Positions 7,539 to 46,220 of a stretch of DNA of 64,000 nt are shown one piece after another. The number at the start of each line of letters is the position of its first letter. Within the stretch, counting starts at the first letter, position 1. Source of the stretch: Pseudoclavibacter chungangensis (lineage in GTDB: Bacteria; Actinomycetota; Actinomycetes; Actinomycetales; Microbacteriaceae); contig NZ_JACCFV010000001.1 of assembly GCF_013410545.1 (NCBI RefSeq), positions 3,472,001 through 3,536,000 on the forward strand, read 5' to 3'. A model generated the notes under the pieces. That model was given only the letters and a program-made list of their open reading frames with translations. It was not told the origin of the DNA and did no database searches. A program made the translations under genes and the position numbers.

Positions 7539-8336
7539 ATGAATCCGGATCGTGGCGACGGGAGGGCGGGCCGTGGTGACGCGCAACCGCACGTGCCCGC
7601 TCGGCCCGATCCCGTTCCCGCCGCGCTCGCGACGCTCCGCCGGGACGGCGTCGTCGTGCTCCCGGGTGCGCGGCCTGCCGTGGTCGACGACGTCCGCGTG
7701 CGGGGTCGAGGCCTGGTGACCGCGGGCATCGTGCTCGGTTCGCTCGGGGCCGTGCTCCTCCTCGGCGGGGTCACCGCCCGCGTCGTCGCGATGTTCACCG
7801 ATGCTCTCGATGTGTGGGCGCTGCTCTCGCTGCTCGTCTTCCCCGGGATCCTGCTCCTCACCACGGGCGGTGCCTTGTGGCTGGGTTCGCTGCTGACGGG
7901 GCTCAACGTGCAGCGGCGGAGCGCGGCGGACCCGTTGCCCGTCGTGCTCGAGCGGGAGGGCTTCCGCGTGCGCGGCGCCGCGATCGCGTGGACCGATGTG
8001 GAGGCGCCCCGGATCGCGAACCTGACCGTGCGAGGCGATGTGAGCGGCCGGATGGCCGTCATGCCGCTCACCGAGCGGGGTCGGCGGCGCATCAACGCGT
8101 GGCCGTTCGAAGCGCGTGAACTCGTCGGCCCCCGCGAATACCTCCGATCCCAGGTGCGGTACGCACTGCTCCCCGGCATCCAGGGATACACGGAGGCGGA
8201 GGTCATGCGCGTTTTCGGCGAGGCGCGCGAACTCGCTGCGGCGACCTCGGGCGAAGGTCCGTCCTCGACCGAGGCACCGCTCGCGGGTGAGGGCTGTCAC
8301 GACGGTCGACCACCGACGGGAACGGAGACGATTTGA
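7539..8336 (+). CDS. Membrane protein of unknown function
   Basis: A 265-residue protein. After about 60 polar residues there are two membrane helices (about residues 62-87 and 97-127), then a soluble C-terminal domain of about 130 residues with EGFRVRGAAIAWTDVEAP. This resembles bacterial PH-like domains on two-helix membrane anchors, but the assignment is tentative. I chose the ATG at 7539, preceded by GAGGAG, over longer upstream readings. It overlaps the next gene by 4 bases (TTGA), and the two proteins share a layout. Confidence 0.65.
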   Translation: MNPDRGDGRAGRGDAQPHVPARPDPVPAALATLRRDGVVVLPGARPAVVDDVRVRGRGLVTAGIVLGSLGAVLLLGGVTARVVAMFTDALDVWALLSLLVFPGILLLTTGGALWLGSLLTGLNVQRRSAADPLPVVLEREGFRVRGAAIAWTDVEAPRIANLTVRGDVSGRMAVMPLTERGRRRINAWPFEARELVGPREYLRSQVRYALLPGIQGYTEAEVMRVFGEARELAAATSGEGPSSTEAPLAGEGCHDGRPPTGTETI

Positions 8337-8878
8337 GTCGCGCCGCACGATACGCGGAGGCCATCCACACGCAGACGTCGCTGACGATCCCCGGTTCCGT
8401 CGTCGCGCGGCTCGGATCCGTCATCATGTTCGCGACCGTGACGGTCGTCTACGCCGTGATCGCGTTGCAGAGCGGGGCGTGGTGGATGCCGCTCGTCATG
8501 CTCGTGCTCGTCCCGGCATTCTTCATCGTGACGCTGTTCCAGGTGCGGTCCCTGCGGTACGTCCGACGCGCCTACCGCATGTCACCCGAGGGCCTCTCGT
8601 ACGAGAACCTCCCGTTCGTGCCGTGGTCCGAGTGTCGCGGTGCGTACGTGGTGACCTCGGGCGGCGAGGCCGGGGAACGGACGATCATCCTGTCGCTCAC
8701 GCCCGAGGGCGGCAGCCTGCTCAGGAACAGTGGACTCGTCGGACGGGCGAAGCTGTCATCGGGATCGAACATCACCGTGCGGCGGTTCGGCGGCTGTTCG
8801 CTGGCCGTGACGGCCCGGCTGCTCACGGAGGCCGTCGTCGTCAATCGCCGTCGACTCGGGCTCGCCCCCGTCCGTTGA
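8333..8878 (+). CDS. Membrane protein of unknown function (paralogous layout to its neighbour)
   Basis: A 181-residue protein with a short N-terminal tail, two membrane helices (about residues 25-70) and a C-terminal soluble domain (SPEGLSYENLPFVPWSECRGAYVV). The order of helices and a 'this is what the residue W sees' style beta domain parallels the preceding protein. The TTG start overlaps the previous stop codon. Function unknown; probably made as a pair with its neighbour. Confidence 0.63.
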   Translation: MSRAARYAEAIHTQTSLTIPGSVVARLGSVIMFATVTVVYAVIALQSGAWWMPLVMLVLVPAFFIVTLFQVRSLRYVRRAYRMSPEGLSYENLPFVPWSECRGAYVVTSGGEAGERTIILSLTPEGGSLLRNSGLVGRAKLSSGSNITVRRFGGCSLAVTARLLTEAVVVNRRRLGLAPVR

Positions 8879-9265
8879 CGCCGCGGATCGATGTGCACGG
8901 ATCGAGCGAACACCACGCCGGCGACGATCACGACGACGGGCCGTGAACGGGGCCGCCGTGCTGCCGGGCACGGCATCGCCGGATTCCGTGCGTTCTGCTC
9001 GGGCCGGCGCCAAGGGCTCGTCCTCATCGGCCTCGGTCCGATCCGGTGGTTCGAGGTGGAACGTCCGCGCGCAGGGTACGGGCGACGAGATCGTGCGCCT
9101 GCTCGATGCAGCACACGCGCTCGCGGAGGCGGGTGCCCTGCGGGCACCCGCGGACGGGGCCGGTGACTGAGCGGACGCACGTCGGCACCTGGCGCGTCCC
9201 GGCACGTGGAACCCGTGATGAGCCCGAGCGGGATCACGCCGGTCCTCGGCCGCCTGCTCGCTCGC
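8879..9265. other. 387-bp stretch without a convincing gene
   Basis: Between the membrane-protein pair and the convergent amidotransferase. A GTG-started 75-codon reading frame (8943-9170, plus strand) exists but lacks a clear RBS and has low-complexity Ser/Gly/Ala content. I see no RNA gene, strong hairpin or repeat here. Confidence 0.5.
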
Positions 9266-9973
9266 TCAGTCGGCCGGGAGCGCTGTGTCGATCCACGCGT
9301 CGAACACGAGCCGAGCCGCATCGGCGAGCCGCGGGCCGTGGCGTGCGGCGTCCTCGCGGACGGCGACCGGATCGATCCCGGCGGATGCGAGCTCGTGCGC
9401 GTGCCCGATGAGCCACCGCTCGATCTGCGTGTGGTCGCCCTCGAGGTGGAACTGCAGGCCGAGCAGCGCGTCGCCGAGGGCGAAGGCCTGGTTCGGGAAC
9501 CCCGGGGTCTCGGCGAGCCGCCGTGCGCCGGCCGGGATCGCGAACTGGTCGCCGTGCCAGTGCAGCACGGGCACCCCGTCGAGTGGTGCGAGCACGGAGT
9601 GCCGCCCCTCCGCCGTGAGGGTCAGCGGGGCGTAGCCGATCTCGGTCCGCCCGGTCGACTCGACCGTCGCCCCGAGCGCACTCGCCATGAGTTGGGCGCC
9701 GAGGCACACCCCGAGCGTCGGGTGCCCGGCCTGCATCCTCGTGGCGAGGCCGCTGCGTTCGGCGGCGAGGAACGGGTACGCGGCTGTGTCGGACACGCCG
9801 ATCGGTCCGCCGAGGACGACGACGAGTTCGGGCTCGCGAAGGCGCTCCGCGGTGATCCGGTCGATCCCGGCATCGAGCAGTTCGACCTCGAAGCCGTGCT
9901 CGGCGAGAACCGGACCGAGGATGCCGAGGTCCTCGAACGCGACGTGCCGGACGGCGAGCGCGTGGCGCGTCAT
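9266..9973 (-). CDS. Class I glutamine amidotransferase domain protein
   Basis: A 235-residue stand-alone amidotransferase of the GMP-synthase-subunit type. The nucleophile elbow GVCLGAQ carries Cys90, and FHLEGD supplies His176 and Glu178, so the catalytic triad looks intact. The ATG at 9973 overlaps the stop codon of the DapA-like gene (ATGA), so the two are coupled. Such proteins supply ammonia or hydrolyse gamma-glutamyl amides; the partner reaction here is unknown, but the DapA-like lyase suggests amino-acid or sugar-acid metabolism. Confidence 0.83.
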   Translation of the reverse strand: MTRHALAVRHVAFEDLGILGPVLAEHGFEVELLDAGIDRITAERLREPELVVVLGGPIGVSDTAAYPFLAAERSGLATRMQAGHPTLGVCLGAQLMASALGATVESTGRTEIGYAPLTLTAEGRHSVLAPLDGVPVLHWHGDQFAIPAGARRLAETPGFPNQAFALGDALLGLQFHLEGDHTQIERWLIGHAHELASAGIDPVAVREDAARHGPRLADAARLVFDAWIDTALPAD

Positions 9974-28381: not shown

Positions 28382-28800
28382 TGGGGGTCCTCTCGATTGC
28401 GTGCAGCTCATGCTAGCGGCCGTGCGGGAATCGCTCACGAGGGAGTTCGACGCTTCAGGCTCGGGGCGTGAATGTCATCGAGCCCTTCATGATGAAAGAG
28501 ATCCTTCATCTTCATCTTAACGGCTGTGGAAACTGTGGACGGTGTCCGCCTGCCTCGTCGGGCCTAGGGAACCACATCCGTGTAAGTTGTGTCGCACTCG
28601 TGAGCGAGCTGTGGTCGCCGCGGTGGCGGTCCGTGGACAGATCCTGGTGGTCCACATCCCGGGACGGTTTCTCCACATTCGGTTCCCGCGCGTCACGGAC
28701 GTTGTCCACAGGTTCTCCACATGTGTCATTGGGACGACGAAACGCCGCTCCCGTTGTGGGGAACGGCGGTGTGCCCCGCAAAATGGGGGCGATTCGGGTG
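28382..28800. other. oriC: chromosomal replication origin (dnaN-dnaA intergenic region)
   Basis: A 419-bp non-coding gap at the standard actinobacterial oriC position. One perfect DnaA box TTGTCCACA is at 28702-28710. Near matches are TTCTCCACA (28669-28677 and 28713-28721), TGGTCCACA (28648-28656) and, on the other strand, TGTGGAAAC (28525-28533) and TGTGGACGG (28534-28542). The AT-richer stretch 28487-28520 (TTCATC repeats) next to the reverse boxes is a candidate unwinding element. Confidence 0.9.
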
Positions 28801-30273
28801 TCAGCGGGCTCCGGCGCCGTTCTGGCGGATGCGGGACGTGAGCTCGGCGACCTGGTTGTACACATCGCGACGTTCGGTGATGAGCTTCGTGATCTTGCGG
28901 TGCGCGTACATCACGGTCGTGTGGTCGCGGCCACCGAACAGCTGCCCGATCTTGGGGAGTGACATGCTCGTCATCTCCCGACAGAGGTACATCGCGATCT
29001 GGCGGCTCGTGGCGATGGCCTGCGAGCGGGACGAGCCGTAGAGGTCGTCGACCGAGAGATGGAAGTAGTCCGCGGTGTGCCGGATGATGTCCGTCGGTGC
29101 GATGTAGCTCGGTTCGTCGTCGGAGACGAGGTCCTTCAGCACGGTCATGACGAGCGGCATGTCGACGTGCTGCCCGTTGAGGCTCGCGTACGCGGTGACA
29201 CGGATGAGCGTGCCCTCGAGCTCGCGGATGGACGACGTGATCCGGCTCGCGATGAACTCGAGCGCGTCGTCGGGGATCTGCATCTTCTCGATCTGCGCCT
29301 TTTTGCGCAGGATCGCGATGCGGGTCTCGAGGTCGGGCGACTGGACGTCGGTGATGAGTCCCCACTCGAAGCGGGACCGCATGCGGTCCTCGAAGCCCGT
29401 CAGACGTTTGGGGGGCAGATCGGACGTGATCACGACCTGCTTGTTGTGCTCGTGGAGGGTGTTGAACGTGTGGAAGAACGCTTCCTGCGTCGTGTCCTTG
29501 CCCTGGAGGAACTGGATGTCGTCGATCAGGAGGATGTCGTTGTGCCGGTAGCGGGCGTGGAACGACTGCGTCCGGTTGTTCGCGATCGAGTTGATGAAGT
29601 CGTTCGTGAACTCCTCGCTCGACACATAGCGCACCCGGATGCCCGGGTACATGCTCTCGGCGTAGTGGCCGATGGCGTGGAGCAGGTGCGTCTTGCCGAG
29701 GCCCGATTCACCGTAGATGAAGAGGGGGTTGTAGGAACGCGCCGGTGCCTCGGCGACGGCGACCGCGGCCGCGTGCGCGAAGCGGTTGGAGCCGCCGATG
29801 ACGAAGTTGTCGAAGGTGTACTTCGCGTTGCGGGCCTGTTCGGCGTCGCTCGTCGACGAGGACCGCGTCGCGGCCGTGTCGAACTCCTCGGCAACGGGCT
29901 CGCGCGAATTCGCGTAGTCCCGCTGCTGTGACGGACGCTGCGGAGGGAGCTCGACGTAGTCGTCGGGGGCCGTCTCGTCGGCCGGCTCGGCGGTGCCGAA
30001 CGTCGGGTCGACGTCCGGGTTCACGATGACGGCGAAGGTGGAGACCTTCGCGTCGTCGTCGAGCTGAGCGATCGCGCCGAGCAGCGGGAGGCGGCCGCGC
30101 TGCTCGATCATCGTGCGTGTGAGGTCGTTCGGGACCTCGAGGAAGATGGTGCCGGCCATGACACCCTTGGGTGACGCGAGCCCCAGGAAGCCGTGCAGCG
30201 ACGGCTGGACGCGGTCGTCGCTCGCCAGGGACTCGAGGATCCGTCGCCAGATGTCGGCGATGTCCGCGGTCAT
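28801..30273 (-). CDS. dnaA: Chromosomal replication initiator DnaA
   Basis: A 490-residue AAA+ initiator. Domain I covers residues 1-80, a disordered domain II about 90-150, and the AAA+ domain starts at KYTFDNFVIGGSNRFAHAA. Walker A GESGLGKTH is at about 188-196, Walker B is LLIDDIQF, and the C-terminal DNA-binding signature GGRDHTTVMYAHRKI is intact. The ATG is preceded by AGAGGAG. It reads away from rpmH and towards oriC. An inverted pair of DnaA boxes about 90 bases upstream suggests autoregulation. Confidence 0.98.
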   Translation of the reverse strand: MTADIADIWRRILESLASDDRVQPSLHGFLGLASPKGVMAGTIFLEVPNDLTRTMIEQRGRLPLLGAIAQLDDDAKVSTFAVIVNPDVDPTFGTAEPADETAPDDYVELPPQRPSQQRDYANSREPVAEEFDTAATRSSSTSDAEQARNAKYTFDNFVIGGSNRFAHAAAVAVAEAPARSYNPLFIYGESGLGKTHLLHAIGHYAESMYPGIRVRYVSSEEFTNDFINSIANNRTQSFHARYRHNDILLIDDIQFLQGKDTTQEAFFHTFNTLHEHNKQVVITSDLPPKRLTGFEDRMRSRFEWGLITDVQSPDLETRIAILRKKAQIEKMQIPDDALEFIASRITSSIRELEGTLIRVTAYASLNGQHVDMPLVMTVLKDLVSDDEPSYIAPTDIIRHTADYFHLSVDDLYGSSRSQAIATSRQIAMYLCREMTSMSLPKIGQLFGGRDHTTVMYAHRKITKLITERRDVYNQVAELTSRIRQNGAGAR

Positions 30274-30647
30274 CTACCGCGCTCCTCTCGTCCGTCTGCG
30301 GTTGCGTGGTGCACTCCGCGAACGTCCTGCAGAGCGGGGCCCTCACGGTATCGGCAGCACGAAGTTATCCACAGAATACTGTGGATAACAGAGGTGTGGT
30401 GTGCACAACTACGGGGGGTGCCGCCTAGCCTACGACGCACCCTCCCCAATTGCGCAAGCTCGCGCACGGATTCCGGTGGGTCATGCAGGCAGGAGCCCGC
30501 TTCGTGTCGTGCCGCTGTGGTGTGTCGCCGAGCCATGTTGACGGCCCGTGAGCCGTCGCATACTGTTAAGCAGTTGTGCCTGCAGCCAGGCATCCCACTT
30601 CTCTGTCGCACGGACTCGCCGTGCGGTCCCGATCCTGGAGTTCTCTG
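30274..30647. promoter_or_regulatory. dnaA-rpmH divergent regulatory region with an inverted DnaA-box pair
   Basis: Two perfect boxes face each other: TTATCCACA (30365-30373) and TGTGGATAA (30380-30388), separated by six bases. The minus-strand TATTCT lying between them could be the dnaA -10, which would make the boxes an autorepression operator. Apart from the rpmH promoter (30538-30566), I see no gene in this 374-bp gap. Confidence 0.8.
30538..30566 (+). promoter_or_regulatory. rpmH promoter
   Basis: TTGACG (30538-30543) and TACTGT (30561-30566) are spaced exactly 17 bp apart, about 80 bases before the rpmH start codon. Confidence 0.65.
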
Positions 30648-30785
30648 ATGTCCAAGCGTACGTTCCAGCCGAACAACCGTCGTCGCGCGAAGGTGCACGG
30701 ATTCCGTCTCCGTATGCGCACGCGTGCCGGCCGCGCGATCCTCTCGGCACGCCGCCGCAAGGGACGCGCGCAGCTTTCCGCGTAG
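30648..30785 (+). CDS. rpmH: 50S ribosomal protein L34
   Basis: A 45-residue, strongly basic protein with the invariant L34 start [19 protein letters not shown]. The ATG follows GGAG. It begins the rpmH-rnpA-yidD-yidC-jag unit on the right replichore. Confidence 0.98.
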
Positions 30786-32687: not shown

Positions 32688-33203
32688 ATGACGACAGAAT
32701 CCGGAACGCAGGACACGGCTCCCCTCGAGCCGACGGAATCGGGCGATGCGCCCCGCGACGAGGGCGACATCGCGGCGGACTTCCTCGAGGAGCTGCTCGA
32801 CATCGCGGACATCGATGGTGACCTCGAGATCGAGGAACGGGACGGGCGCATGTACGTGTCGGTCTCGGCGGATGGTGCGACGAGTCTCGATCGACTCGCG
32901 AACCCCGAGGTCGTCGAAGCATTGCAACAGCTCACGCGACTCGCGGTGCAGGCCGACTCCGGTGAGTTCTCGCGACTCATCCTGGATGTGGGCGGATCTC
33001 GCGACGCACGTCGGCGCCAGCTCGGTGAGCTGTTGGATCGCGCCGTGGCGCGCATCGAGGAGGGGGCCGCCTCGGCCGCGCTCCCGCCGATGTCGTCGTA
33101 CGAGCGGAAGATCGTCCACGACCTCGCGGCCGAGCGTGGCTACCACTCGGAGTCCGAGGGTGAGGGCCGCGAACGGCACACGGTGGTACGCGCCCTCAGC
33201 TGA
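32688..33203 (+). CDS. jag: Jag/KhpB-like KH-R3H RNA-binding protein
   Basis: A 171-residue protein with a KH-like segment (about residues 25-100, with ISGDDL-like features replaced by DGDLEIEERDGRMYVSVS) and a C-terminal R3H domain (about 112-171: SYERKIVHDLAAERGYHSES, then RHTVVRAL). The acidic N-terminal 25 residues are disordered. Such proteins bind RNA and affect cell-wall growth. I chose the ATG at 32688 after GGAGAAGAGG; a GTG at 32661 overlapping yidC is an alternative. It normally neighbours rsmG, but here 8.4 kb intervenes. Confidence 0.92.
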   Translation: MTTESGTQDTAPLEPTESGDAPRDEGDIAADFLEELLDIADIDGDLEIEERDGRMYVSVSADGATSLDRLANPEVVEALQQLTRLAVQADSGEFSRLILDVGGSRDARRRQLGELLDRAVARIEEGAASAALPPMSSYERKIVHDLAAERGYHSESEGEGRERHTVVRALS

Positions 33204-33751
33204 TCGTCCGATGCCGGCGATGGGCCCGCGACGACGATGTCCGGGCCCGTCGTGCGGGACGTCGGTGCATGACGGCGGTCCGGTCGGCCGGCGTGGCGCC
33301 GCCGCTCCTGCGGTTCACCGGGAGCGTTGTGTGTCGTCCTCGGGACGGCTCACTTGTCGGGGATTCGGTGTCGGCCGCGCATCGACGTAGTGCACGAGGC
33401 GGATGACAGGGGTCGTCCGCGTGCCGTCGTGATGGTCGGCGTCGCCCACACGAGTTGTGACCCCGGTCATGCACCGGGATGGCGGTCGGCACGCGCGCGT
33501 TCCATGTGCTGGCAGCCCTTCCCTCTCCCGTTCGCTCTGCGCCCAGTTCGGCCTGCGCCCAGTTCGCCCTGCGCCGGTTCCCCGCGCTGCTGTTTCCCGA
33601 TCGCCTGGCCCTCATGTGGAACGATTCGGCGGCGCTGTCCCGGGCTCGGAGCTCATCGGATTCGGTGTCCGGGGGTGTCGAGCCGGCGGTTTCGGTGCCA
33701 AGGAGTCGTCGGCGTGTTGCGGGGTCGCACATTGTCGTGTGGGGCTGTGAC

Positions 33752-33997
33752 GGGTTGGTGCACCGTGGTGGCGGGGTTGTCGCAGGGGTGTGCCTTGTCC
33801 TGTCTGGCACTCACGCGTTGTGCGTTGCGCTGTCGGTTGTCGTGGGTTCGTGCGTGGTGGTGTCGGGCTGTCGGGGTTCGTGCGGTGCGGTGTCGGCCTG
33901 TCGCGGGTTTGTGCGTCGTGGTGTCGGCCTGTCACGGGATTGTGCGTCACGGTGTCGGGCTGTGACGGGTTTGTGCGTCACCGTGTCGGGTGCTTGC
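33752..33997 (+). repeat. Degenerate 31-bp tandem repeat, about 8 units
   Basis: Units begin GGG(T/A)T(C/T)GTGCGT and restart near 33752, 33784, 33815, 33844, 33874, 33905, 33936 and 33967 (spacings 29-32). The last five are clearest, each containing GTGTCGG(G/C)CTGT. The plus strand is strikingly G+T rich. Not a CRISPR: there are no unique spacers. Confidence 0.7.
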
Positions 33998-35277
33998 GGT
34001 GTCGCGGGCCATGTCGTCCGGCGCGCGATCGGGCAGGCCGAGCACGGAGCCGTGCACGTGTTGGCGTCACGCACGTCGGACACGTTAGTGGCCAGCGAGC
34101 TCCACGACGGGTGGCCGCCAGTGGCGGCGCCGCACGCTCTGCACGAGTTGGTGTCGGTTCATGTCGTGGCATAACTGCGCACATCGCTTCGCTCTGAGGA
34201 TCCCTCGTTTCATGCTCGGGTGTGGTCCGTGCGTTCTCTGCTGGACAACCCTCTGTCGGCGCAGTGCCCCTGGATCGAACCAGATCGATGCACGGTCCGT
34301 CGCAGCTCCGCCACCGATCGCCGGAGGCCGTCGGTCTGTGCTGGAAGCCAATCCTCGTCGTTGCATCGATGTCTATCGATAGAGCCTCGGCCGACCGACG
34401 TTGGGTCCCGCTGGATCGATGAGGGTCGCGATCCAACGTCCGATCGGGTGACGTCCCGCTGACATCGATGAGTTGACGTCACCGATGTCGTCGGAGTGCG
34501 TCGCAGCACCGAGATGGTCTGACGATGGTGCGGGATATCCGGTGGTCGATGTGGCTGACGGAGCTTGGTGGATTGGTGTGTTCGCTGCGGCGACCACTCC
34601 CCCTCGTGTACGCGTGTCTTTCGGTGGTCGATCTCTGGAAGTCATCGGGCTCGGCATGTCATCGATGGTCGTGACGCGGGTCGCGAGTCGCGGTTCGGCC
34701 GTGAAGATCGTATGCCGCGCGTGCGGGACGCCACAGGACACCGTTCGGGACCGCGATCGTCGGGACGGTGCAGCGGAAGGGCCATCGGGGGTGAGTCCCA
34801 TGGACCGTCTCCTGAAGTGCAGCCCGCGTGAACTCGTACTCGGTGTGATGGCAGGTCGGTACTCCTACACTTGCGTGGGTTCGATGGACGGCCACGTGAA
34901 GGTGGCATGTCGTGTCGGATGGAGTGGCGGCGTGTCGATGTGGATCATCGGATCGGCCCGATCGATGCATTCGGCCCATTTGCGTCGCCACGCCGAGCGA
35001 TGCAGCTTGGGGCTTCAAGGGCGTGCCTTCATCGTTCTGAGTCCGGTGACGTGGGCAGATGTATGTCGCACGCGTTCGTCGTGGCGCGAGTCCGACGTGA
35101 ACGGGGCACCGGGTGTGACTGCTGACTCGCTCCGGGAGATGAGTTCCACACTCGACGACGTTGTGTCGTCTTCGTTTCGAGTGGGGGGAGCACGCGGTCG
35201 GTGATCGGTGGTTCACGATTATCAGTGGATCATCGCGTGTCGACGCGAGGCACCGGTGCGTGTCACGTGCTGGTGGG

Positions 35278-35293
35278 GGTTTCACGTGAAACA
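35278..35293. other. parS site 1
   Basis: GGTTTCACGTGAAACA: the 14-base palindromic core GTTTCACGTGAAAC is perfect. It is the leftmost site of the array and the closest to oriC, about 6.5 kb away. Confidence 0.95.
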
Positions 35294-35959
35294 TCGCGAC
35301 GAGCGGCTGAGAACGTACTGCTCGGAGCTGGCTGTTCTGCGACGGACCAGGCCTCCATCCCCCACCTACACTCGCGGTTGCTGGACCTGACGGGTCACCA
35401 AGTGTCGGACGCACGTTCAGCAACCGCGCCCTCACTTCTCGACGGAGGGCCTCCCTGTGGATGTCCATCGGGGCGCGCCGGAAGGGATGGGATGGGCGTG
35501 CCTCGTTGTCGAGGCGTGAATGGTTGCCAGCGTGCGGTTCTCAGGGGCGCAGCACTGCTCCCCGTGGGACAGGATTCCGGGAGGGACGGTCGATCGGCGC
35601 GCCGGCAAGCGGCGGGGAGCCGATCGGTGCTTCGGCTGCCCCTCTCAGCCCCGTTCAGGGGTGAACGACAGAGGCGTCGAGCGCGAGTACCCGCCGGCGG
35701 ATGCCACACTGCCCCTCCTCCGGGCGGTGACCCATGTGACGTCGGCGATACTCGAGGCCGATGGGAGACGGCACCGGCGGAGGGTGTTTGACGTGAGATG
35801 CCGACTGACTGCTCGTCCGCGAATGTCATGCAGGTGGAGGTCGGTGTTCGGCACTCACGCCCCATGCGATCTGCAGACCGCGATCCGCTGAGTATTGTTC
35901 CTCGACTACTCGGCGGCGTCGGGGACTCATCTGATCTGGTACAGGCGCATGACCGCTTT

Positions 35960-35975
35960 CGTTTCACGTGAAACG
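35960..35975. other. parS site 2
   Basis: CGTTTCACGTGAAACG, a 16-base perfect palindrome, 682 bp from site 1. Confidence 0.95.
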
Positions 35976-36576
35976 CACACCCCGGTGCTTCCACATCATG
36001 GACGTGTTCGTCACCCGTGGCGCGGAACTCCCACGCGATGCGGAAGAAGGTGACGACGGTTGCTCGTCGGGACGAGACCCCTCGAGCCTCACCCCTTGGC
36101 GCGTGAACCCGTCTCGGCCCCGAGGGGCCACGTAAGCGGTTGCACGACGTGCAGGTCGCGTCTCGCCTCGTACCGCAAACCCCGACGCACGACCCATTCC
36201 TCCACACACGGTGCGATCGAGTTCGACAGGGCCATTGCCCGGTTCAGGCGCCTTTGACGAGCTAGGGACGAAGCCGAATGTCGACTGACATCTGGCCGCG
36301 TATGGCCGCCATCCTGGAAGGCTGCACGTGGAGGAACGCACCGTCCCATTTCGGTGTGCGGGAATGGTGCCCACCTATCACCCGATGTCGGCACAAGAGG
36401 CTCGACCGTGACCGCGTGGTGGAATGCCGGATCGCATATCGCTGCTCGCAGAGTCGCTGCGGCAACGACGAGCACCCGGCGGGGGCTGCTGCGGGCTTCC
36501 TTCGTGATCATGGAGGCGAGCCCGTCATTGCCCGATGACCTGTCGTCCGGTGCTCCATCATGACCGGTCCCGTTTG

Positions 36577-36592
36577 CGTTTCACGTGAAACA
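36577..36592. other. parS site 3
   Basis: CGTTTCACGTGAAACA with a perfect 14-base core, 617 bp from site 2. Confidence 0.95.
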
Positions 36593-37245
36593 CGGGCCGC
36601 AACAACACGGTGAGACATTGAACGAGGATCTTGGAGCCCGGCGGTGCCGATTCAGTGACAGTTCGCTCCGGTTGCGAGTGGGCGGCGGGACTGCCCTGTG
36701 CCCGCGCCCGAGCTCCGAACGCCTCGGTCGTGAAGTCCGGGCGACCAACCCCGGTAGCTCCGCGCTGCAGCTGAGTTGCGGGAGCCGACCACCAGACTCT
36801 GTCGGGGACTCCCGCTCAACCGTGCGTCCATAGCGTTCCCCGGAGGGTGTCATCCTCGACCTGTCCGACCCTCGTGCCAGATTGTTCTCCTCACGGTCAT
36901 CGCGACTGAGACAGCAGTAGTCCACGTGACCGTCGTCGAGGGTCTTGCCACGCTGCCGCTCGTCGGCGCAAACGCTCGTCGAGGAGGCGTGCCCGGGCGC
37001 CGAGCTGCGACACTACGGCGGCGTGGTCTCGAGGGTGGAGGCCGGCTTCGTTCCAGTCTGGCCCGTGGGCCACTGTCGTGATTGGGCTTCGCGGGAACCT
37101 CCTGAGATTCAAGTACCGAGCCCGTGTTCAGCGGATCCCCCGTGGTGTGCGGAGCAAGGTCATCGTGGCCGGGTGATGGTGGGACCGGAACCATTTCGCG
37201 CTCGGGCGAGCGGATCTACATGCTGAGTACGGGTGCACTGCGCTC

Positions 37246-37261
37246 CGTTTCACGTGAAACA
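37246..37261. other. parS site 4
   Basis: CGTTTCACGTGAAACA with a perfect core, 669 bp from site 3. Confidence 0.95.
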
Positions 37262-37687
37262 CGACATCCTTGAAGCACGTGGCGCGTTGGAGACGACTGT
37301 CCCGGAATGCGTTCGTGGTTTGCGGGCAGGTCACCCCGTAGTTCCGACGGAATCCAGCAGGTCTCGTCATCGTTTGGGGCTGCCCGAAACGCACGCGTCG
37401 CATTCGAATGAGGGCGTACTGCCGGGCTCGCGTGCTGGGTCGTGACGAAGTCACTGCATTGCCTCAAGGGCGACTCTGCTCCCTGTGCGCGCCGGAGCCC
37501 CGCGTCGGTACCGCCGGGTCGGGGGTTGGGAGGCCCGTGGGATCAGAGGCCGCGTGGGGAGATGGCAGGATATGCGGCGGTCGTTCGAGCGGGTGAGCCT
37601 GAGTGACCTCTCGTGATTGCCGCAATGCGTCGCATGAGCTGGCATGACGAGACAGAGCCACGGCAGAGAGGCTGCGCTGTGGACTGA

Positions 37688-37703
37688 CGTTTCACGTGAA
37701 ACG
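37688..37703. other. parS site 5
   Basis: CGTTTCACGTGAAACG, perfect over 16 bases, 442 bp from site 4. Confidence 0.95.
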
Positions 37704-38067
37704 CTCCATTGCGTGTCCACCACATCATGAGTGTCGTCTCTTGCGAGTTGTCCCGCCTGGCCCCTGGAACGCAAGGGATCAGTGTCTTTCGAACGAGACA
37801 ATCCCCTGCCCGGATGCGTAAACAATGCCTCGTGACCGGCAGCGAGGTGGGAACGCGACTCGAGAGTCGAGCGGCCTGGTTTGCTGTATGCATGTCGGTA
37901 TCGAACTGTGATCGATGATGGCAATGGCACGGATCGCAGCGGGGGCTCTGACATCGGTGAGGACAAGATGATGAACCTCACGCATTGCTTCAAACGAACG
38001 ACGGCCGCTCCGCGAGTTTCGCTGAGCCATTGGCCGACTGAACGGTTCTCAGGCGGGCGGCGGGCGC

Positions 38068-38083
38068 CGTTTCACGTGAAACC
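38068..38083. other. parS site 6
   Basis: CGTTTCACGTGAAACC with a perfect core, 380 bp from site 5. Confidence 0.95.
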
Positions 38084-38449
38084 TGACGCAGAGGGTGCTT
38101 GCTGGGACACCTTCGCCGACCAGGTTGTGGAAGTCGGCTCGGGTTGGTCAGGAGGCCTGCCCGTAGGAATTCGCCGGGATGCACACCTTGCAATCGGTAA
38201 TGGCGGCCCGCCACAGAAGCTTGTGCGAACGACCTTCAGGATCAGTTGCGTTTACATCGAGGCGCGGCCGCTCACACGGCATCCGGAACGACGGTGGCGC
38301 ACAGATAGGTCATAGCGGAGGAGCTCCGGTGCTGCTTCCATTCCACTGCGGTCCTGTGGCCCTGAGTGGAAGTGGGATCCCTTGACACTCTACGAGTGCG
38401 ATATGTCGTTGGTGGGAGCTGGTTCCTAACCCAAGTTCGGGCCTGCTGC

Positions 38450-38465
38450 CGTTTCACGTGAAACG
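38450..38465. other. parS site 7
   Basis: CGTTTCACGTGAAACG, perfect over 16 bases, 382 bp from site 6. Confidence 0.95.
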
Positions 38466-38558
38466 GCGAGTCCTTGTCACGGCAATCAGCTCAACTCATA
38501 CTCGGTGCGGCGTCGATGAACTCTGGGCGAGATCCAGGGAACACCCACGGTTGGGATC

Positions 38559-38661
38559 AGTGCCAGTGCCAGTGCCAGTGCCCTCGTGGAAGTGGAAGTG
38601 GGAGTGGGAGCCGGAGCCGGAGCCGGAGCCAGAGCCAGGGCCGGAGTGAGTGTGAGTGACA
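38559..38661 (+). repeat. Imperfect 6-bp repeat tract (CAGTGC / GGAGCC types)
   Basis: A run of TGCCAG units (four copies, about 38559-38582) passes into GGAAGT/GGGAGT units, then GGAGCC/AGAGCC units, and ends in GTGAGT. The plus strand shows a change of base composition along one tract, which suggests slippage. It lies about 100 bp after parS site 7. Confidence 0.8.
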
Positions 38662-39166
38662 GGGTCAGGCGTCGGTGATGTACGGATAGATTGCGCCTGC
38701 GGGGTCGAGGAATGCCTTGCGCTCCCGTTCGAGTGGACCCGCTTGGAGACAGCAGGGTCCCGAAGCGAGATGGCGATTCGCACAGTAGGGTGCGATCTGT
38801 TCAAGCGCGTAGATGCTCGGTCGGACAGCGCCCGGCGGCGGACGCTCGGTGGGTCGAGGTGCACCCCTCGGTGGAATCCTGCGCCTTGCAGCGACTGTTC
38901 ACGGGGTTCCCTCCTCGCGTGAACTGCTCGGAGTCCAGAACAGCGGGCGGTTTCTCTGAATGGAAGGAAGTGGCATCACTATCCGCCGCTTCCTCTGCGA
39001 GGCGGCACCTATGTGGCGCCGAGGGCGAAAGCGCATTCGCTTGAGGAGCAACCGCGTGCGAGTTGGCTCTGATTTGGTGGGCATCGGATTGCCACGCGGG
39101 GTATCGCAGTTCCCTCCCGTCCCCTGCAGTGGACGACGAAGAGGCCGGCGTACGACAAGGCTTCGA

Positions 39167-39182
39167 TGTTTCACGTGAAACG
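39167..39182. other. parS site 8
   Basis: TGTTTCACGTGAAACG with a perfect core, 717 bp from site 7. Confidence 0.95.
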
Positions 39183-39766
39183 TGTCGCTGTCGCTCCCGG
39201 CAAGCAGGGGTGCGCCAAGGTAACTAGCACGCGTTGGGAGCTCAACGCGGCCTCCACCTGGCCTTTGGCGATTCATGCAGCTTGTTTGGGCATTGCCGTA
39301 GGGGCGTCAGCGCTCACGTCCTACCCACCCGGCGTCTGTGCGGCACTCATGCGCAGCTCATGAGAGTTCTGCGGTCGTGCGGGTGGACGCCGACGGAACG
39401 AGAAGGTTCAGCTGTCGCCTCATTGCTGTCAGCGCGCGTGTCCCGATCCCACACGCTCCGAGCAGGCGTGAAGCTTCCAACTACTCTTCGTGAGAGGGAG
39501 CACGGAGCACGACTGAGCATGCGCGTGAACACCGTATTCCACGAGGTCCGATCGTCCACATCTGGTCCATGCCCGCCCTTGTCGGCGTCGACAATCGGAC
39601 GTCGAGTACGGAAGGCACGCCGGCGTCGTACCTATTCGTCGGGCGCGGCGGGTTGTGTTGTCGCTCGTTGGCCCCCGCGTCTTGCTGTCCGATTCTTGCC
39701 CTCGCGCCGAGCGGTATCGCGTTGCTTGGTGGCGTTCGCGTACCGTGCCCTCAGATGCCCCGGGTT

Positions 39767-39782
39767 CGTTTCACGTGAAGCA
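39767..39782. other. parS site 9, one mismatch
   Basis: CGTTTCACGTGAAGCA: the right half has AAGC in place of AAAC, so the core is 13 of 14. It lies only 141 bp from the perfect site 10 and may be a decaying copy or a weaker loading site. Confidence 0.8.
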
Positions 39783-39907
39783 GTGCCGATTGGCGTCCCA
39801 TCGGCAATGCCGAAACAGGACTGCCGTGGCCAGCGTCCCGCATTGGGGAGCGCCGAGTCTCGTGGCTGGACCTCTGCCAGTCGCACATCTCGCAGGAATG
39901 CGGATCG

Positions 39908-39923
39908 CGTTTCACGTGAAACA
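39908..39923. other. parS site 10
   Basis: CGTTTCACGTGAAACA with a perfect core, 141 bp from the imperfect site 9. Confidence 0.95.
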
Positions 39924-40319
39924 TGTCGAGGTTGGAAGCGTGGGACTGCAGAGTGACCGGGTGCACGGGATCGGTGCGTGGCAACGGGTGATTCGACTGC
40001 AGGCAAGGCGGTGCAGCCGAAGTGGGTAGAGAACACGGAGTGCGCGCCACACGTGACGCTCGCATCGCCGCACGTCTGGGCGGGATAGCGCGAACCGAGG
40101 TGTGCGGTGCGGCGCCGCACCGACAATTCCAGTCGTACCGGCGTCTGCCGCTGTGGAACGGACCCACTGCTCGTGTCGAGCGTTCCTTCGTCGGTCGTGA
40201 TGACGGCCCCTCGTTGGCCGGGAGTGAGTATTCCGAACTTGGACGTGGTGTTTCGGCAGTCCACACGTGCATCCCGGACGGGCGGAGTTTCGAGGGTACG
40301 GACGTGATGGGGAATGCTT

Positions 40320-40431
40320 GCTCGGTGCTCGGTGCTCGGTGCTCGGTGCTCGGTGCTCGGTGCTCGGTGCTCGGTGCCCGGTGCTCGGTGCTCGGTGCTC
40401 GGTGCTCGGTGCTCGGTGCTCGGTGCTCGGT
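40320..40431 (+). repeat. 16 tandem copies of the 7-bp unit GCTCGGT
   Basis: Exactly 112 bp, 16 units in register, with one variant: unit 9 (40376-40382) reads GCCCGGT. Heptamer repeats of this perfection are typical of recent replication slippage. It sits in the largest parS-free interval of the array, between sites 10 and 11. Confidence 0.95.
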
Positions 40432-41153
40432 GTTAGAGGTGTGCGTGTTCGAGGTTCGAGGTCAGAGCGCGGGTAGGACGACTTCGCGCGCCCGAGTACT
40501 AGGAGGACGCCAAGGGAGGCGGGGCGGGCCTGTTTTGGATGACGATACTTCTTCCCTTGTCGTGAGGACGGGTGCGTCTTCCATGCAGCGGTGCTGTGGC
40601 GGCGATGGCCTTCAGCGTTGCACGGTGCCGTCCGCTTCCGCGTCGTCACGACGAGTTCGGTCGGCTCGGGCGCATCTCGTTGTCGTCGCGCGGCACGGTG
40701 TCGGTCTGGACATACTGATGTGGCCAAATGGTTGGGTCGACGCCGTGGCGCGGCGAGGGAGCAGGTTCATCCGTGCGGCGCGACGGTTGCTCGATGAGGT
40801 AGTTGGGTCTCGACCGTTCCGCGATCAGGAGTGTGCCTGGGTCTTGGGGCTGGTTCGCGATTGCCCACGGTGCACGTCCGATCCGTTCGGCGCTGCTCGT
40901 AATGTGACGGGGGCGTGCGAGGTGGTGACGGCTGTAGTCACCTCCGCGGGCGTGCGGGGAATCGCGACACGAATCAGTGCACGGGTTCGGGGTTGTGGTA
41001 TCTCGGTGCCACATGCTCTGGGCGCTTGGAACTGGTGGGTGAGAGGACGAGCCCCCTCGCCCACGCGTTACATGGCCCAGAGCGCCCGAGTTGGGTGGGC
41101 CCGACATCGGGCCCCTGTCCGTTGGTGCTCCGTTGGCGCGTTCGATCGGTGAC

Positions 41154-41169
41154 TGTTTCACGTGAAACG
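41154..41169. other. parS site 11
   Basis: TGTTTCACGTGAAACG with a perfect core, 1246 bp from site 10, the longest gap in the array. Confidence 0.95.
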
Positions 41170-41359
41170 CCTTCACGAGTCGGCACGATGACGCGGCCCT
41201 GACCACAGCACGAGCGACACATCCGCGGAACTCCGCTCAGCAGGAGGCGAGCGGAGTCGGAACGAAGCGGCACGCGGTCGAGGACATGAATCGCCGAGCG
41301 CATGGGCGGGCCGCACCGGGGTCGAGCGTGGTTCGGGTCCCGAACGCGCACCGATCTCG

Positions 41360-41375
41360 CGTTTCACGTGAAACA
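41360..41375. other. parS site 12
   Basis: CGTTTCACGTGAAACA with a perfect core, 206 bp from site 11 and about 220 bp before rsmG. Confidence 0.95.
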
Positions 41376-41591
41376 CCAGTTGAAAGGTTGGACGGAATGC
41401 GCTCCGGTAGCCGTTCTGGACAGGCTCACTTCACACGCATGGGGCGCGCGATCCGCGAGGGCGCCCGAGCCGGTGACTCGCGGAAGCACGTGCGGGACCC
41501 TGCAGCCTGAGACGGCCTCCGTGCGACCACGTGCCGTGTGGGCGCGTCGGTAGGCCGACGTGAAAGACTGGGGTCTCGGAAAGGACCCGCA

Positions 41592-42245
41592 TTGACCAAC
41601 CCGTCGCTTCCAGCGGACCTCGAGTCCGAGCCCGACATCGCCGCTCAGCTGTTCGGAGACACGATCGAACAGGCACGCGAGTACACGTTCGCCCTTGCCT
41701 CCCATGGTGAGGAACTCGGTCTCGTCGGCCCCGCAGAGTACCCGCGGCTCTGGACCCGTCACATTGTGAACTCGGTTCTTCTGGCACCCCTCCTTCACGG
41801 TACGGTCGGTGACATCGGCTCCGGGGCGGGTCTCCCCGGCCTTCCTCTTGCGATCGCCCGTCCCGATGTGCACCTCACGCTCATCGAGCCGATGGAGCGC
41901 CGCACCGATTGGTTGCAGTCACAAGTCGAGGCACTGGGACTCACGAACGTCACCGTCGTCCGCGCTCGAGCGGAGGAGGTGCATGACGAGTACACCTTCG
42001 ACCAGGTGACCGCTCGGGCGGTGTCGGCATTGAGCAAGCTCATCCCGATCACGGTTCCGCTCCTGCGCGAGGGAGGTGAGCTCATCCTCCTCAAGGGACG
42101 GTCGGCTGAGGCGGAGATCGAGAAGGCGGCCAAGATGATCAGGAAGTTCCGTCTGCACGATGTCCGTGTCGAGGAACTGGGCTCGGATCTCGAAACGGAG
42201 CCCACGCGTGTGCTGCGAGCGATGCACGGGGACTCGGCCGAGTGA
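41592..42245 (+). CDS. rsmG: 16S rRNA (guanine-N7)-methyltransferase RsmG
   Basis: A 217-residue SAM-dependent methyltransferase that modifies G527 of 16S rRNA. The SAM site VGDIGSGAGLPGLPLAIARPD and the segment LIEPMERRTDWLQ are diagnostic, and RAVSALSKLIPITVPLL follows. The TTG start at 41592 is preceded by GGAAAGGA; a GTG at 41538 would add 18 unlikely residues. It begins the rsmG-parA-parB unit that closes the parS island. Confidence 0.95.
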   Translation: MTNPSLPADLESEPDIAAQLFGDTIEQAREYTFALASHGEELGLVGPAEYPRLWTRHIVNSVLLAPLLHGTVGDIGSGAGLPGLPLAIARPDVHLTLIEPMERRTDWLQSQVEALGLTNVTVVRARAEEVHDEYTFDQVTARAVSALSKLIPITVPLLREGGELILLKGRSAEAEIEKAAKMIRKFRLHDVRVEELGSDLETEPTRVLRAMHGDSAE

Positions 42246-42252
42246 GACTCGC

Positions 42253-42268
42253 TGTTTCACGTGAAACG
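42253..42268. other. parS site 13, between rsmG and parA
   Basis: TGTTTCACGTGAAACG with a perfect core, eight bases after the rsmG stop codon and about 70 bases before the parA start. Its position suggests ParB binding could also affect parAB expression. Confidence 0.95.
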
Positions 42269-42338
42269 GTGATCCCGACCGGGGCATGTCGGTGGCATGG
42301 GCGACAATGGAGACGCATCAGTGGGTGGAAGGACGAGT

Positions 42339-43256
42339 GTGACGAAACAGAGCAACTCGGGCGACGGTGACCCTTCCGTCGACGAGTCCCCGATCGCGAC
42401 GGAACTCAACGCCCTGACCGAACGCCGCATCAGACTCGTCAAGACGTCTGTGCCGCTCCCCGAGCAGACTCGGATCTTCACGGTGTCCAACCAGAAGGGT
42501 GGCGTGGGCAAGACCACGACGACGGTCAATCTCGCGGCTGCCCTCGCGACGACCGGTGCTCGAGTCCTCGTGATCGACCTGGATCCGCAGGGCAACGCCT
42601 CGACCGCACTCGGTGTGGAACACCGCGGTGACGTCCCCGGCATCTACGAAGCACTCCTCGACGGCCGCCCGCTCGACGAGCTGATGAGCGAGAGCCCGGA
42701 TGTGGACAATCTCTGGTGCGTACCGGCGACGCTCGACCTCGCGGGTTCCGAGGTCGAACTCGTTTCGCTCGAGCACCGCGAATTCCGTCTCCGACAGGCG
42801 ATAGCCGGGTTCCTGGCCGCGCACGACGACCCGAAGACCTTCTTCCACTACATCTTCATCGACTGCCCTCCATCGCTCGGTCTCCTGACAGTGAACGCGT
42901 TCGTCGCCGCCCGTGAGGTGCTCATTCCGATCCAGTGCGAGTACTACGCACTCGAAGGACTGAGCCAGCTCATCACGAACGTCAACCGCCTGGCCGAGCA
43001 CCTGAATCCCGACCTTCGCCTCACCACGATCCTCTTGACCATGTACGACGGTCGCACGCGCTTGGCACAAGAGGTCGCGGCAGAGGTTCGCACACACTTC
43101 CCGTCCGAGACGCTCGAGACGGTGATTCCTCGATCGGTTCGTATCTCGGAGGCCCCGAGCTACGGACAGACCGTCATCTCCTACGACCCGAATTCCACGG
43201 GCGCCGTCTCCTACCGCGAGGCCGCGGTCGAGATCGCCCAGCGAGGAGCGAACTGA
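42339..43256 (+). CDS. parA: Chromosome-partitioning ATPase ParA
   Basis: A 305-residue ParA/Soj ATPase that positions ParB-parS complexes along the nucleoid. The deviant Walker A is KGGVGKTT (about residues 53-60), Walker A' is VLVIDLDPQGNAS, and Walker B is FIDCPPSLG. I chose the GTG at 42339 because GGAAGGA precedes it; an ATG at 42297 without an RBS would add 14 residues. It is followed by parB after two bases. Confidence 0.95.
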   Translation: MTKQSNSGDGDPSVDESPIATELNALTERRIRLVKTSVPLPEQTRIFTVSNQKGGVGKTTTTVNLAAALATTGARVLVIDLDPQGNASTALGVEHRGDVPGIYEALLDGRPLDELMSESPDVDNLWCVPATLDLAGSEVELVSLEHREFRLRQAIAGFLAAHDDPKTFFHYIFIDCPPSLGLLTVNAFVAAREVLIPIQCEYYALEGLSQLITNVNRLAEHLNPDLRLTTILLTMYDGRTRLAQEVAAEVRTHFPSETLETVIPRSVRISEAPSYGQTVISYDPNSTGAVSYREAAVEIAQRGAN

Positions 43257-43258
43257 AC

Positions 43259-44701
43259 ATGGCAACGAAACGACGGGCCGGGCTCGGGCGCGGAATCAGC
43301 TCACTCATCCCGACCTCCACCGAACGACGCGAACGTCCCGTGGACGTCTTCTTCGGACAACACGAGTCCGAAGATGCCACGACTACATCGGCTCCGATCG
43401 ATGCATCGGATTCCGCGACCGCGAGTGAGAGGACGGCGGCCGACGCGAGCGCGCCCACGGTGAAGGCACCGAAGTCCGCATCACCGAAGACGAACGCATC
43501 GTCCGCTCGTTCCACGAAGCGATCGACGTCCGGCCGCACCAACACCGGTAGCGGGACGTCGACAAATGCGAAGGGGGCGGGCACCGCTTCCGGTAAGACG
43601 ACGCGGTCGAAAGCCACGACATCGACCACGAGCGCACCATCAGACCGGTCCCGGCAACGAGGCGAGGATTCCTCGACCGACTCGGTCGTCGAGCAGAACG
43701 CGAACGATGAGGCTGCGGAGGCGAGCACGCGGGAGACACCCGTCGGCGACGCGACGAACGGTGTCGAGGCGACGGACCGCGGTGAATCGACCGCGGCGCA
43801 GCAGGCCCCGGTACCCGACCGCACGCACGATGAGTCCGACGCTGCAGACCTCCTGCCGATCCCCGGTGCGAGTCTCCGCCAGGTCGAGCCCACCCAGGTC
43901 GTTCCCAATGCCTGGCAGCCGCGACGCGAGTTCGACGAGGAGGCACTGGCCGAGCTCGTCCACTCCGTACGCGAGTTCGGACTCCTGCAGCCGATCGTGG
44001 TGCGCCCCATTCCGGAGGAGCATCCGCTCGCGGGCGAGGCCGAGTACGAGCTCATCATGGGTGAGCGACGTCTCCGTGCCTCGAAGGCGGCCGGACTCGA
44101 GACGATCCCTGCCATCGTCAAGGAGACGCCTGACGATGTCATGCTCCGCGATGCACTCCTCGAGAACCTCCATCGCAGTCAGCTGAATCCTCTTGAAGAG
44201 GCGAGCGCCTACCAACAGCTCCTGGACGACTTCGGGATCACGCAGGAGGAGCTGGCACAACGGATCGGGCGATCGCGCCCGCAGGTGAGCAACACGCTTC
44301 GTCTGCTGAAGCTGCCGCTCGAGGTGCAGCGGCGCGTCGCGGCAGGCGTGCTCTCTGCCGGACATGCTCGCGCGGTGCTCTCCGTGGGCGAGCCGACGGG
44401 GATGGCCCAGCTCGCCGACAAGATCATCAACGAGGACCTGTCGGTGCGCGCGGCCGAAGCGGCGGCAGCGAAGGTGGGTGCTCGCTCGACGCAATCGACC
44501 GGAGAGTCGGGGGGAACGTCGGGCGGGAGCCTCACGGGATACCTCGACGAGGTCGGGGAGCGCTTGGGCGACCGGTTGAACACACGCGTGAAGGTGACCC
44601 TGCGGAGGACGAAGGGCCAGATCGTGGTCGATTTCGCGTCGGTCGCCGACCTCAACCGCATTCTCGGCGAGCTCGGCGAGGACGTGGGCGACGCGAACTG
44701 A
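43259..44701 (+). CDS. parB: Chromosome-partitioning protein ParB with a long disordered linker
   Basis: A 480-residue CTP-dependent DNA clamp that loads at parS. The N-terminal ParA-contact tip is RAGLGRGISSLIP (residues 6-18). The CTP-binding domain starts near residue 205 (VEPTQVVPNAWQPRREFD), with GERRLRA (268-274) and ENLHRSQLNP (302-311). The helix-turn-helix follows (about 325-352) with ELAQRIGRSRPQVSNTLRLL, and the C-terminal dimerisation domain ends the chain. Residues 35-200 are a low-complexity Ala/Ser/Thr/Lys linker; typical ParB proteins of 330-380 residues lack so much. Its binding sites fill the upstream 7 kb. Confidence 0.96.
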   Translation: MATKRRAGLGRGISSLIPTSTERRERPVDVFFGQHESEDATTTSAPIDASDSATASERTAADASAPTVKAPKSASPKTNASSARSTKRSTSGRTNTGSGTSTNAKGAGTASGKTTRSKATTSTTSAPSDRSRQRGEDSSTDSVVEQNANDEAAEASTRETPVGDATNGVEATDRGESTAAQQAPVPDRTHDESDAADLLPIPGASLRQVEPTQVVPNAWQPRREFDEEALAELVHSVREFGLLQPIVVRPIPEEHPLAGEAEYELIMGERRLRASKAAGLETIPAIVKETPDDVMLRDALLENLHRSQLNPLEEASAYQQLLDDFGITQEELAQRIGRSRPQVSNTLRLLKLPLEVQRRVAAGVLSAGHARAVLSVGEPTGMAQLADKIINEDLSVRAAEAAAAKVGARSTQSTGESGGTSGGSLTGYLDEVGERLGDRLNTRVKVTLRRTKGQIVVDFASVADLNRILGELGEDVGDAN

Positions 44702-45274: not shown

Positions 45275-46150
45275 TCACGGACGGCGTCCCTGCTTTCGCG
45301 CACGACGCATCGGTGCACGAGGCGGTGCCGGCGTCGCATCCCGTCCCGGCTCGGAGCGTGACGGACGCGTGCCTCCTCGGACGGGCACGGCCAGGCCGAA
45401 GAGCGTCGCCCACTGTGCGGCCGTGAGGTCCCGGGGGAGCGCCCCACGTCCGAGGCCCTCGCCGGCGAGCCACGCGACGACGATCGCGCGCTGTTCCGGA
45501 GCGACGAGCCGCTCGGCGATCGCTGCGAGTCCGCGGCCGCGGCCTCCGAAGACCGCGCGCACGAACCGACGATAGGCCGTTCGTCGTGCGGGCGGCACGA
45601 GCGGCGCGGAACGTCGACTGATGGTGAGGAGACCACCGTCGACGCTCGGCCGTGGACGGAACGCCCGCGCGGGAACACGTTGCTCGAGGGCGAACTCGAA
45701 CCACGGCCACCACTCCGCGGTCATGAGGGTCGCACCGCCGACCGCGGCCCGACGACGAGCGACCTCCCACTGCACGATGAGTACCGCCTCCGACCAGCGC
45801 GCGGACTCCAGCAGCGACCTCAGCATGGCCGTCGTGACATGGAAGGGAAGGTTCCCGACGACGACGCGTGTCCCGGCGGGTACCGGGACACGCAGCGCAT
45901 CACCGTGCCGCACGGTCGTTCGAGAGCCGACGCGGGCGGACAGTCGGTCCGCGAGTCGCGGGTCGAGTTCCACCGCCGTGATCCGACGGTTCAGGCGTTC
46001 GAGTGGCAGCGTGAGCGAGCCCTCCCCGGGCCCGATCTCGAAGATCGGACCGGGTGAGCGGCGCACGAGCGCCACGACGCGATCCACGACCGCGCGGTCG
46101 ACGAGGAAGTTCTGACCGAGTTCGTGCGAACCGGGGTGACGGGATGACAT
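45275..46150 (-). CDS. erm: Erm-type 23S rRNA (adenine-N6)-dimethyltransferase
   Basis: A 291-residue SAM-dependent methyltransferase of the Erm family, which methylates A2058 of 23S rRNA and confers macrolide-lincosamide-streptogramin B resistance. SAM motif I EIGPGEGSLT (about 38-47), the acidic VELD turn (60-63), GDAL (83-86) and the catalytic NLPFHVTT (100-107) are present. QWEVARRRAAVGGATLMTAE followed by WWPWFEF (residues 127-153) is typical of actinobacterial Erm proteins and separates it from the housekeeping KsgA. The C-terminal 35 residues are basic and Pro/Arg-rich. A leader peptide and hairpin upstream suggest drug-inducible translation. Confidence 0.87.
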   Translation of the reverse strand: MSSRHPGSHELGQNFLVDRAVVDRVVALVRRSPGPIFEIGPGEGSLTLPLERLNRRITAVELDPRLADRLSARVGSRTTVRHGDALRVPVPAGTRVVVGNLPFHVTTAMLRSLLESARWSEAVLIVQWEVARRRAAVGGATLMTAEWWPWFEFALEQRVPARAFRPRPSVDGGLLTISRRSAPLVPPARRTAYRRFVRAVFGGRGRGLAAIAERLVAPEQRAIVVAWLAGEGLGRGALPRDLTAAQWATLFGLAVPVRGGTRPSRSEPGRDATPAPPRAPMRRARKQGRRP

Positions 46151-46161
46151 GACGAAGATCT

Positions 46162-46220
46162 CCGGGCTCTGAGAGCGGTGCCCGGGCAGCACTGACGGCG
46201 CCGCCCAGCATGGTCTGCTG
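46162..46220 (-). promoter_or_regulatory. Putative translational attenuator upstream of erm
   Basis: On the minus strand, CCGGGC/GCCCGG (plus coordinates 46162-46167 and 46180-46185, loop 12) forms a stem that covers part of the erm RBS GGAG (46160-46163). A second hairpin CAGCA-TGGTC-TGCTG lies at 46206-46220. Stalling on the leader peptide could free the RBS, as in known erm systems. Confidence 0.5.

Follow-up and report, generated by a model that had tools for sequence, protein, structure and literature searches.

The stretch analysed here, referred to as the window, comprises 64,000 nucleotides of the Pseudoclavibacter chungangensis chromosome (positions below are those of the window) and carries, from left to right, the genes dnaN, dnaA, rnpA, yidD, yidC and jag, then a long block in which we found no gene, and then rsmG, parA and parB. 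Twelve copies of parS, the site bound by ParB, lie in the block and one more lies in the gap between rsmG and parA:

33204..41591, no strand: gene-free jag–rsmG interval (the block), 8.4 kb, holding 12 of the 13 parS (codon-phase, Pfam, Rfam and tRNA scans)
35279..35292, no strand: parS 1, exact match
35961..35974, no strand: parS 2, exact match
36578..36591, no strand: parS 3, exact match
37247..37260, no strand: parS 4, exact match
37689..37702, no strand: parS 5, exact match
38069..38082, no strand: parS 6, exact match
38451..38464, no strand: parS 7, exact match
39168..39181, no strand: parS 8, exact match
39768..39781, no strand: parS 9, single mismatch, reads GTTTCACGTGAAGC
39909..39922, no strand: parS 10, exact match
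41155..41168, no strand: parS 11, exact match
41361..41374, no strand: parS 12, exact match
42254..42267, no strand: parS 13, exact match, within the rsmG–parA gap

The array therefore holds 13 parS in 7.0 kb near parAB, i.e., more than ten sites within a few kb, the last of them beside parA, and the sites follow the parS consensus GTTTCACGTGAAAC near oriC. Their positions, as well as the division into twelve exact copies and a single-mismatch copy at 39768, are those reported by an earlier reading of the sequence alone (the sequence-only reading), and the mean spacing of 581 bp matches its figure of about 580 bp. Shuffled versions of the window gave on average 0.10 matches at up to two mismatches, with a maximum of 2. 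When the reference genome (3,985,007 bases, 3.985 Mb in a single contig) was scanned with up to one mismatch, 13 places were found, every one in the window array, and a reversed control pattern gave 0 matches in the same scan. The concern that the rest of the chromosome could carry parS at a similar density can be set aside: there are 0 further sites at this threshold, and the array is unique. The window holds 0 words with two mismatches, and the block holds 1 word with three and 1 with four. Sites in the window are thus intact or else gone. Helical phasing of the sites was not detected in the window (R 0.09). Judging from the sequence, the block very probably serves as the only centromere at which ParB is loaded on this chromosome.

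The sequence-only reading had called the block gene-free, with one further site in the rsmG–parA gap, and our scans bear this out. The difference in GC content among codon phases averaged 0.084 in 54 windows of 300 bp (33204–41591) versus 0.081 after shuffling; three sets of neighbouring genes reached 0.31–0.42. Runs of low periodicity (run threshold 0.20) extend over 6.25, 1.7 and 1.15 kb of the block, and the longest such run elsewhere, in 20 sampled 20-kb stretches amounting to 10% of the genome, measures 1.25 kb. No Pfam match over cut-off was obtained for the 32 open reading frames (ORFs) of at least 110 amino acids that overlap the block, nor for an additional one overlapping the end of jag; three weak matches (E 0.03–0.07) were confined to two ORFs. 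The longest open stretch, 386 codons, exceeds that of most shuffles (P 0.025) and shows neither codon periodicity nor a family, and neither Rfam families nor tRNA were found in the block. Hidden genes were rejected because periodicity and Pfam matches over cut-off are both missing. Some minor repeats were noticed: a tandem heptamer, TGCTCGG, in 16 copies (40319-40432) within the longest parS-free stretch of the array (39922 to 41155), and a 31-bp G/T-rich tandem repeat in 5.6 copies (33818-33989) in the leftmost 2 kb of the block, which lack parS and where AT skew goes down to -0.42.

Comparison of the jag–rsmG interval among relatives, which the sequence-only reading had proposed as a check, showed that the array and the non-coding expansion recur. 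We collected 80 named loci via RsmG and measured both gaps, jag–rsmG and rsmG–parA, in 78; the genomes compared within the genus of the window include P. terrae and sp. AY1F1, AY1H1 and RFBB5. Both gaps are below 300 bp in 43 of the 78 loci, with 0–1 parS per gap in 41 of those 43, while the rsmG–parA gap is at least 1 kb in 22 of the 78 and the jag–rsmG gap in 3. Counted per fetched stretch, 1–5 parS were found in 58 of the 80 named loci and at least 10 in 12. The Pseudoclavibacter/Gulosibacter clade is represented by 17 loci (8 and 9), the window included and some placed by genus code, and all 17 present exactly one expanded parS-rich gap of 1.8–8.4 kb with 5–22 sites; their unexpanded gap is at most 613 bp and has 0–1 parS. 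The expanded gap is jag–rsmG in nine loci (8.4 kb and 12 sites in the window, 2.3–4.8 kb and 7–22 sites in the others) and rsmG–parA in eight (1.8–7.1 kb, 5–18 sites). One extra parS lies outside both gaps in each of two loci, Gulosibacter macacae (L060) and L180. Mean codon-phase spread was at most 0.14 in 21 of the 22 intervals tested.

A tree of six proteins requires the array to have changed sides of rsmG 3 times; branches with good support enforce 2 of these changes, and the number ranges over 2–3 among bootstrap trees. A single origin of all rsmG–parA arrays was rejected by the approximately unbiased (AU) test (p-AU 1.15e-8), and a single origin within Pseudoclavibacter was not (p-AU 0.185), both values being indicative, with groups named post hoc after the first tree. 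With regard to a possible inversion behind the change of side, blastn returned no homology to the window spacers in either orientation, bar low-complexity matches between the heptamer repeat of the window and an Agromyces array locus. Dense arrays are not confined to the clade. Two Microbacterium loci have them between rsmG and parA, with 15 sites in 6.2 kb in Microbacterium sp. MAH-37 and 10 sites in 4.5 kb in Microbacterium bovistercoris; in Actinomyces oris up to 19 parS are spread over 9 kb on the downstream side of the parA start (L131:11140-20187), in neither gap. In the family as a whole, at least 10 parS were counted by hand in 28 of 299 genomes, our own included, a count that takes in scattered and chance sites and was made where some genomes also gave 1–2 matches to the control pattern.

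Spacing was evaluated in 21 arrays against random placement with the ends fixed. In the window the coefficient of variation is 0.52 versus 0.94 under random placement (P 0.010 for all 13 sites, P 0.021 for the 12 block sites alone), and 12 of the 21 arrays are more evenly spaced than random at P<0.05 (Fisher 3e-17, related arrays not being fully independent). Recent tandem duplication, as in the loci L177 and L174 described below, would produce even spacing by itself.

The spacers, on the other hand, have changed profoundly between close relatives. P. terrae and RFBB5 share a median identity of 95% in coding windows (42 windows over 20 kb) and 95%, with a minimum of 70%, in low-periodicity windows outside the array (23 windows), versus 49% in array windows (41 windows); their blocks align at 50%, versus 43% when shuffled. 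Three alignable array pieces, 62–63% identical, imply a divergence of about 0.5, and synonymous divergence dS between the two genomes is 0.17–0.43 (six genes); hence divergence in the spacers is as fast as synonymous divergence or faster. Between Gulosibacter sediminis (L059) and L174, identity is 92% in the rsmG–parA spacer and 52% in the array, with 42% for shuffled sequence. In close pairs, therefore, spacers are under no detectable constraint. We also observed that the parB start and linker (L055:17851-18300) are among the fastest stretches after the array, at 70–86% versus 95% between P. terrae and RFBB5.

Sites on recognisable tandem units, as called by Tandem Repeats Finder, were seen in three relatives and not in the window. 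The parS-bearing unit is 151 bp in L177 (4.3 copies, 78%), 170 bp in L174 (3.2 copies, 81%) and 141 bp in L178 (2.4 copies, 74%); the same program called none in L058 and L180. L177, of the Gulosibacter group, has the most parS per array among the loci compared (22, at 5784-9284), and 13 of its 21 spacings fall within 3 bp of 151. Identity between most neighbouring units is nevertheless close to background, as though the regular spacing had persisted after the unit sequence was lost. The tandem units suggest a history in which duplication of units carrying parS enlarges an array, which ages afterwards; for the window this history would have to be extrapolated from its relatives. In eukaryotic satellite centromeres, too, the repeated units contain a box bound by protein, and the sequence turns over fast while the position is kept; the likeness is one of analogy only, with the three relatives, and involves no homology, and the window differs in having no recognisable units. 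As a tentative hypothesis, which we hold at somewhat less than even chances, the block could be a regional centromere evolving like a satellite: units that carry parS duplicate in tandem, spacers randomise at least as fast as synonymous positions, sites and their spacing persist, and the array arises anew on one or the other side of rsmG, with exactly one array for each origin.

The genes bordering the block and the probable origin are as follows:

28439..30723, no strand: probable oriC neighbourhood, dnaA plus flanking spacers (dnaA PF00308, DnaA-box-like words)
32736..33203, + strand: jag (R3H domain), left border (PF01424, E 2.4e-15; start assumed)
41592..42245, + strand: rsmG (GidB), right border (PF02527, E 4.4e-47; TTG start assumed)
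42297..43256, + strand: parA (AAA_31, E 2e-53; CbiA, E 4.1e-28)
43259..44701, + strand: parB, 480 amino acids (PF02195, PF17762, PF23552)

A ParA-type ATPase is linked to a ParB with three domains, namely ParB_N (from residue 205), HTH_ParB and a C-terminal domain, as in members of ParABS systems. The ParB scores 191 bits against TIGR00180 (cut-off 58.45), and its best solved relative is the Spo0J chain 6sdk_A (E 3.8e-48), with ParB structures also among the best matches; a Noc-type identity was not found, its score of 206.2 bits against TIGR04285 lying below the cut-off of 315. ScpB is encoded at 1.93 Mb of the genome. Five DnaA-box-like words with up to one mismatch surround dnaA (28669–28721 and 30365–30388). 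The nearest one is about 5 kb from parS 1, and the distance between the array and the probable oriC is about 5–14 kb. That the block is oriC itself was rejected, as it has 1 such word (34939) and parA has 1, versus the 5 around dnaA. For rsmG, a GTG start at 41538 is also possible. In three loci of genus g15 (L182, L184 and L185) the rsmG match spans a TGA, which may be the normal stop: these matches reach query residue 215 and most end near 211.

We infer from what is known of ParABS systems that ParB binding, clamp loading and SMC loading could take place at the array. The ParB encoded next door would bind each of the 13 parS palindromes, close as a cytidine triphosphate (CTP) clamp and slide onto the gene-free DNA around it; covered with ParB, the block would then be moved by ParA and be a likely loading place for SMC–ScpAB. 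The sequence of the spacers seems to be without information, and the features kept would be the 14-bp sites, a minimum site number, approximately even intervals and a location between jag and parA. Tightly bound proteins stop ParB sliding in vitro, and simulations indicate that short-lived roadblocks have a mild effect (PMC10387095). A gene-free stretch would spare ParB clamps from transcription, which may be the reason for the missing genes. The interpretation put forward by the sequence-only reading is partly supported: uniqueness in the genome at up to one mismatch and recurrence of the array in relatives speak for its core, a dedicated compact centromere, and the simultaneous loading of many ParB clamps that it proposed is a prediction.

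Some of our observations weigh against the centromere reading. The parS flanks in the window retain no remnant of tandem duplication (mean identity 0.30 versus 0.29 for random anchors), and 9 of the 21 arrays, including that of the close relative RFBB5 (P 0.79), have no significant spacing regularity. Even the closest pair gave no convincing orthology of individual sites: a masked alignment pairs 2 of 11 (control mean 0.33, maximum 3), and the unmasked alignment pairs 7 of 11 and is biased by anchoring on the sites themselves. The jag–rsmG interval of G. macacae, with a mean codon-phase value of 0.22 and a maximum of 0.53, probably holds some coding DNA. Furthermore, one parS gives near-normal growth and folding in Corynebacterium glutamicum (PMC7083940), so the window may not need all 13. 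This last point, together with the seemingly unconstrained spacers and the 1–5 parS of most named relatives, would fit surplus sites in junk DNA: an insertion-tolerant interval would have expanded and taken parS copies with it, and only one or two of the sites would be functional. We regard this as unlikely. Decaying sites should be common under such a scenario, but 12 of 13 are exact and none has two mismatches despite near-saturated spacers, and every clade array has at least five parS, with even spacing beyond chance in 12 of the 21 arrays tested.

It is still less probable that the array acts chiefly not in segregation but as a sink or silencer, setting the level of free ParB and repressing genes in its vicinity. 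In Pseudomonas aeruginosa, ParB at two intergenic parS represses adjacent genes, and slightly raised ParB levels silence most of the genes around the cluster (PMC7022226); in the window, one parS occupies the gap between rsmG and parA, next to the start of parA. However, with no other chromosomal parS the array must also serve as centromere, and in relatives it is found on either side of rsmG. A mobile short-repeat family, similar to repetitive extragenic palindromes (REP) or miniature inverted-repeat transposable elements (MITE), or else a degraded plasmid or phage insertion, would account for the GC content of the block (0.649 versus 0.708 in the 10% genome sample) and for the small jag–rsmG gap, about 300 bp, of the four nearest relatives. 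We give it hardly any credence, and a mobile-element origin was rejected, given that parS has no copies elsewhere at up to one mismatch, its flanks are unique, no gene remnants are seen, the motif is identical to parS, and 33600–41500 gave no plasmid or phage match. Our best reading is that the block is a ParABS centromere of the known kind in a compact form.

Repeated binding sites beside the parAB genes are characteristic of F sopC and similar plasmid centromeres, which resemble the window array but are plasmid-borne. In Streptomyces coelicolor, like our organism an actinobacterium with many origin-near parS, the sites are scattered over hundreds of kb, unlike those of the window. They number up to 20–23 near the origin (PMC7333895), and a single parS cluster appears to be commoner on plasmids (PMC10387095). 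The nearest precedent that we found is the compact chromosomal array of Myxococcus xanthus, where a 3-kb cluster of 22 parS lies about 4 kb upstream of parA and the distance of parAB from oriC is about 35 kb; ParB shifts DNA of this cluster in vitro (PMC3899335). That array is denser than ours and has the consensus TGTTCCACGTGGAACG. C. glutamicum also has a multi-site, mostly intergenic cluster near oriC, parS1–10, which recruits ParB and SMC (nine of the ten sites intergenic, 73 kb from oriC; PMC7083940), but it is spread over 35 kb, whereas the window has one gene-free block beside parAB. The sequence-only reading had held that parS in other actinobacteria are usually scattered through genes. 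This contrast is too strong in view of C. glutamicum, A. oris and the two Microbacterium arrays, and the published M. xanthus array is tighter than that of the window. Our literature search, at the level of listings and with most subscription papers (including a 2007 parS survey) beyond reach, returned no report of parS arrays in Microbacteriaceae, and none of a gene-free expansion, placement on either side of rsmG, unconstrained spacers, even spacing or tandem stages.

The clade lends itself to questions about the evolution of bacterial centromeres, since position is kept and the DNA between sites has changed almost beyond recognition. It also offers a direct system: genomes have 5–22 sites, sites in the block can be altered with the genes left as they are, arrays occur on one or the other side of rsmG, and some relatives show tandem stages. 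In Bacillus subtilis, clustering of strong parS was proposed to limit SMC collisions (PMC8357415), and by that proposal an array at one locus would limit them in the extreme.

Finally, between parB and ddl (45275-46192, - strand) we observed a gene similar to Erm-type 23S rRNA adenine methyltransferases, of which tblastn found no relative in 20 loci around rsmG and which scores 254.6 bits against NF000499 (cut-off 212).

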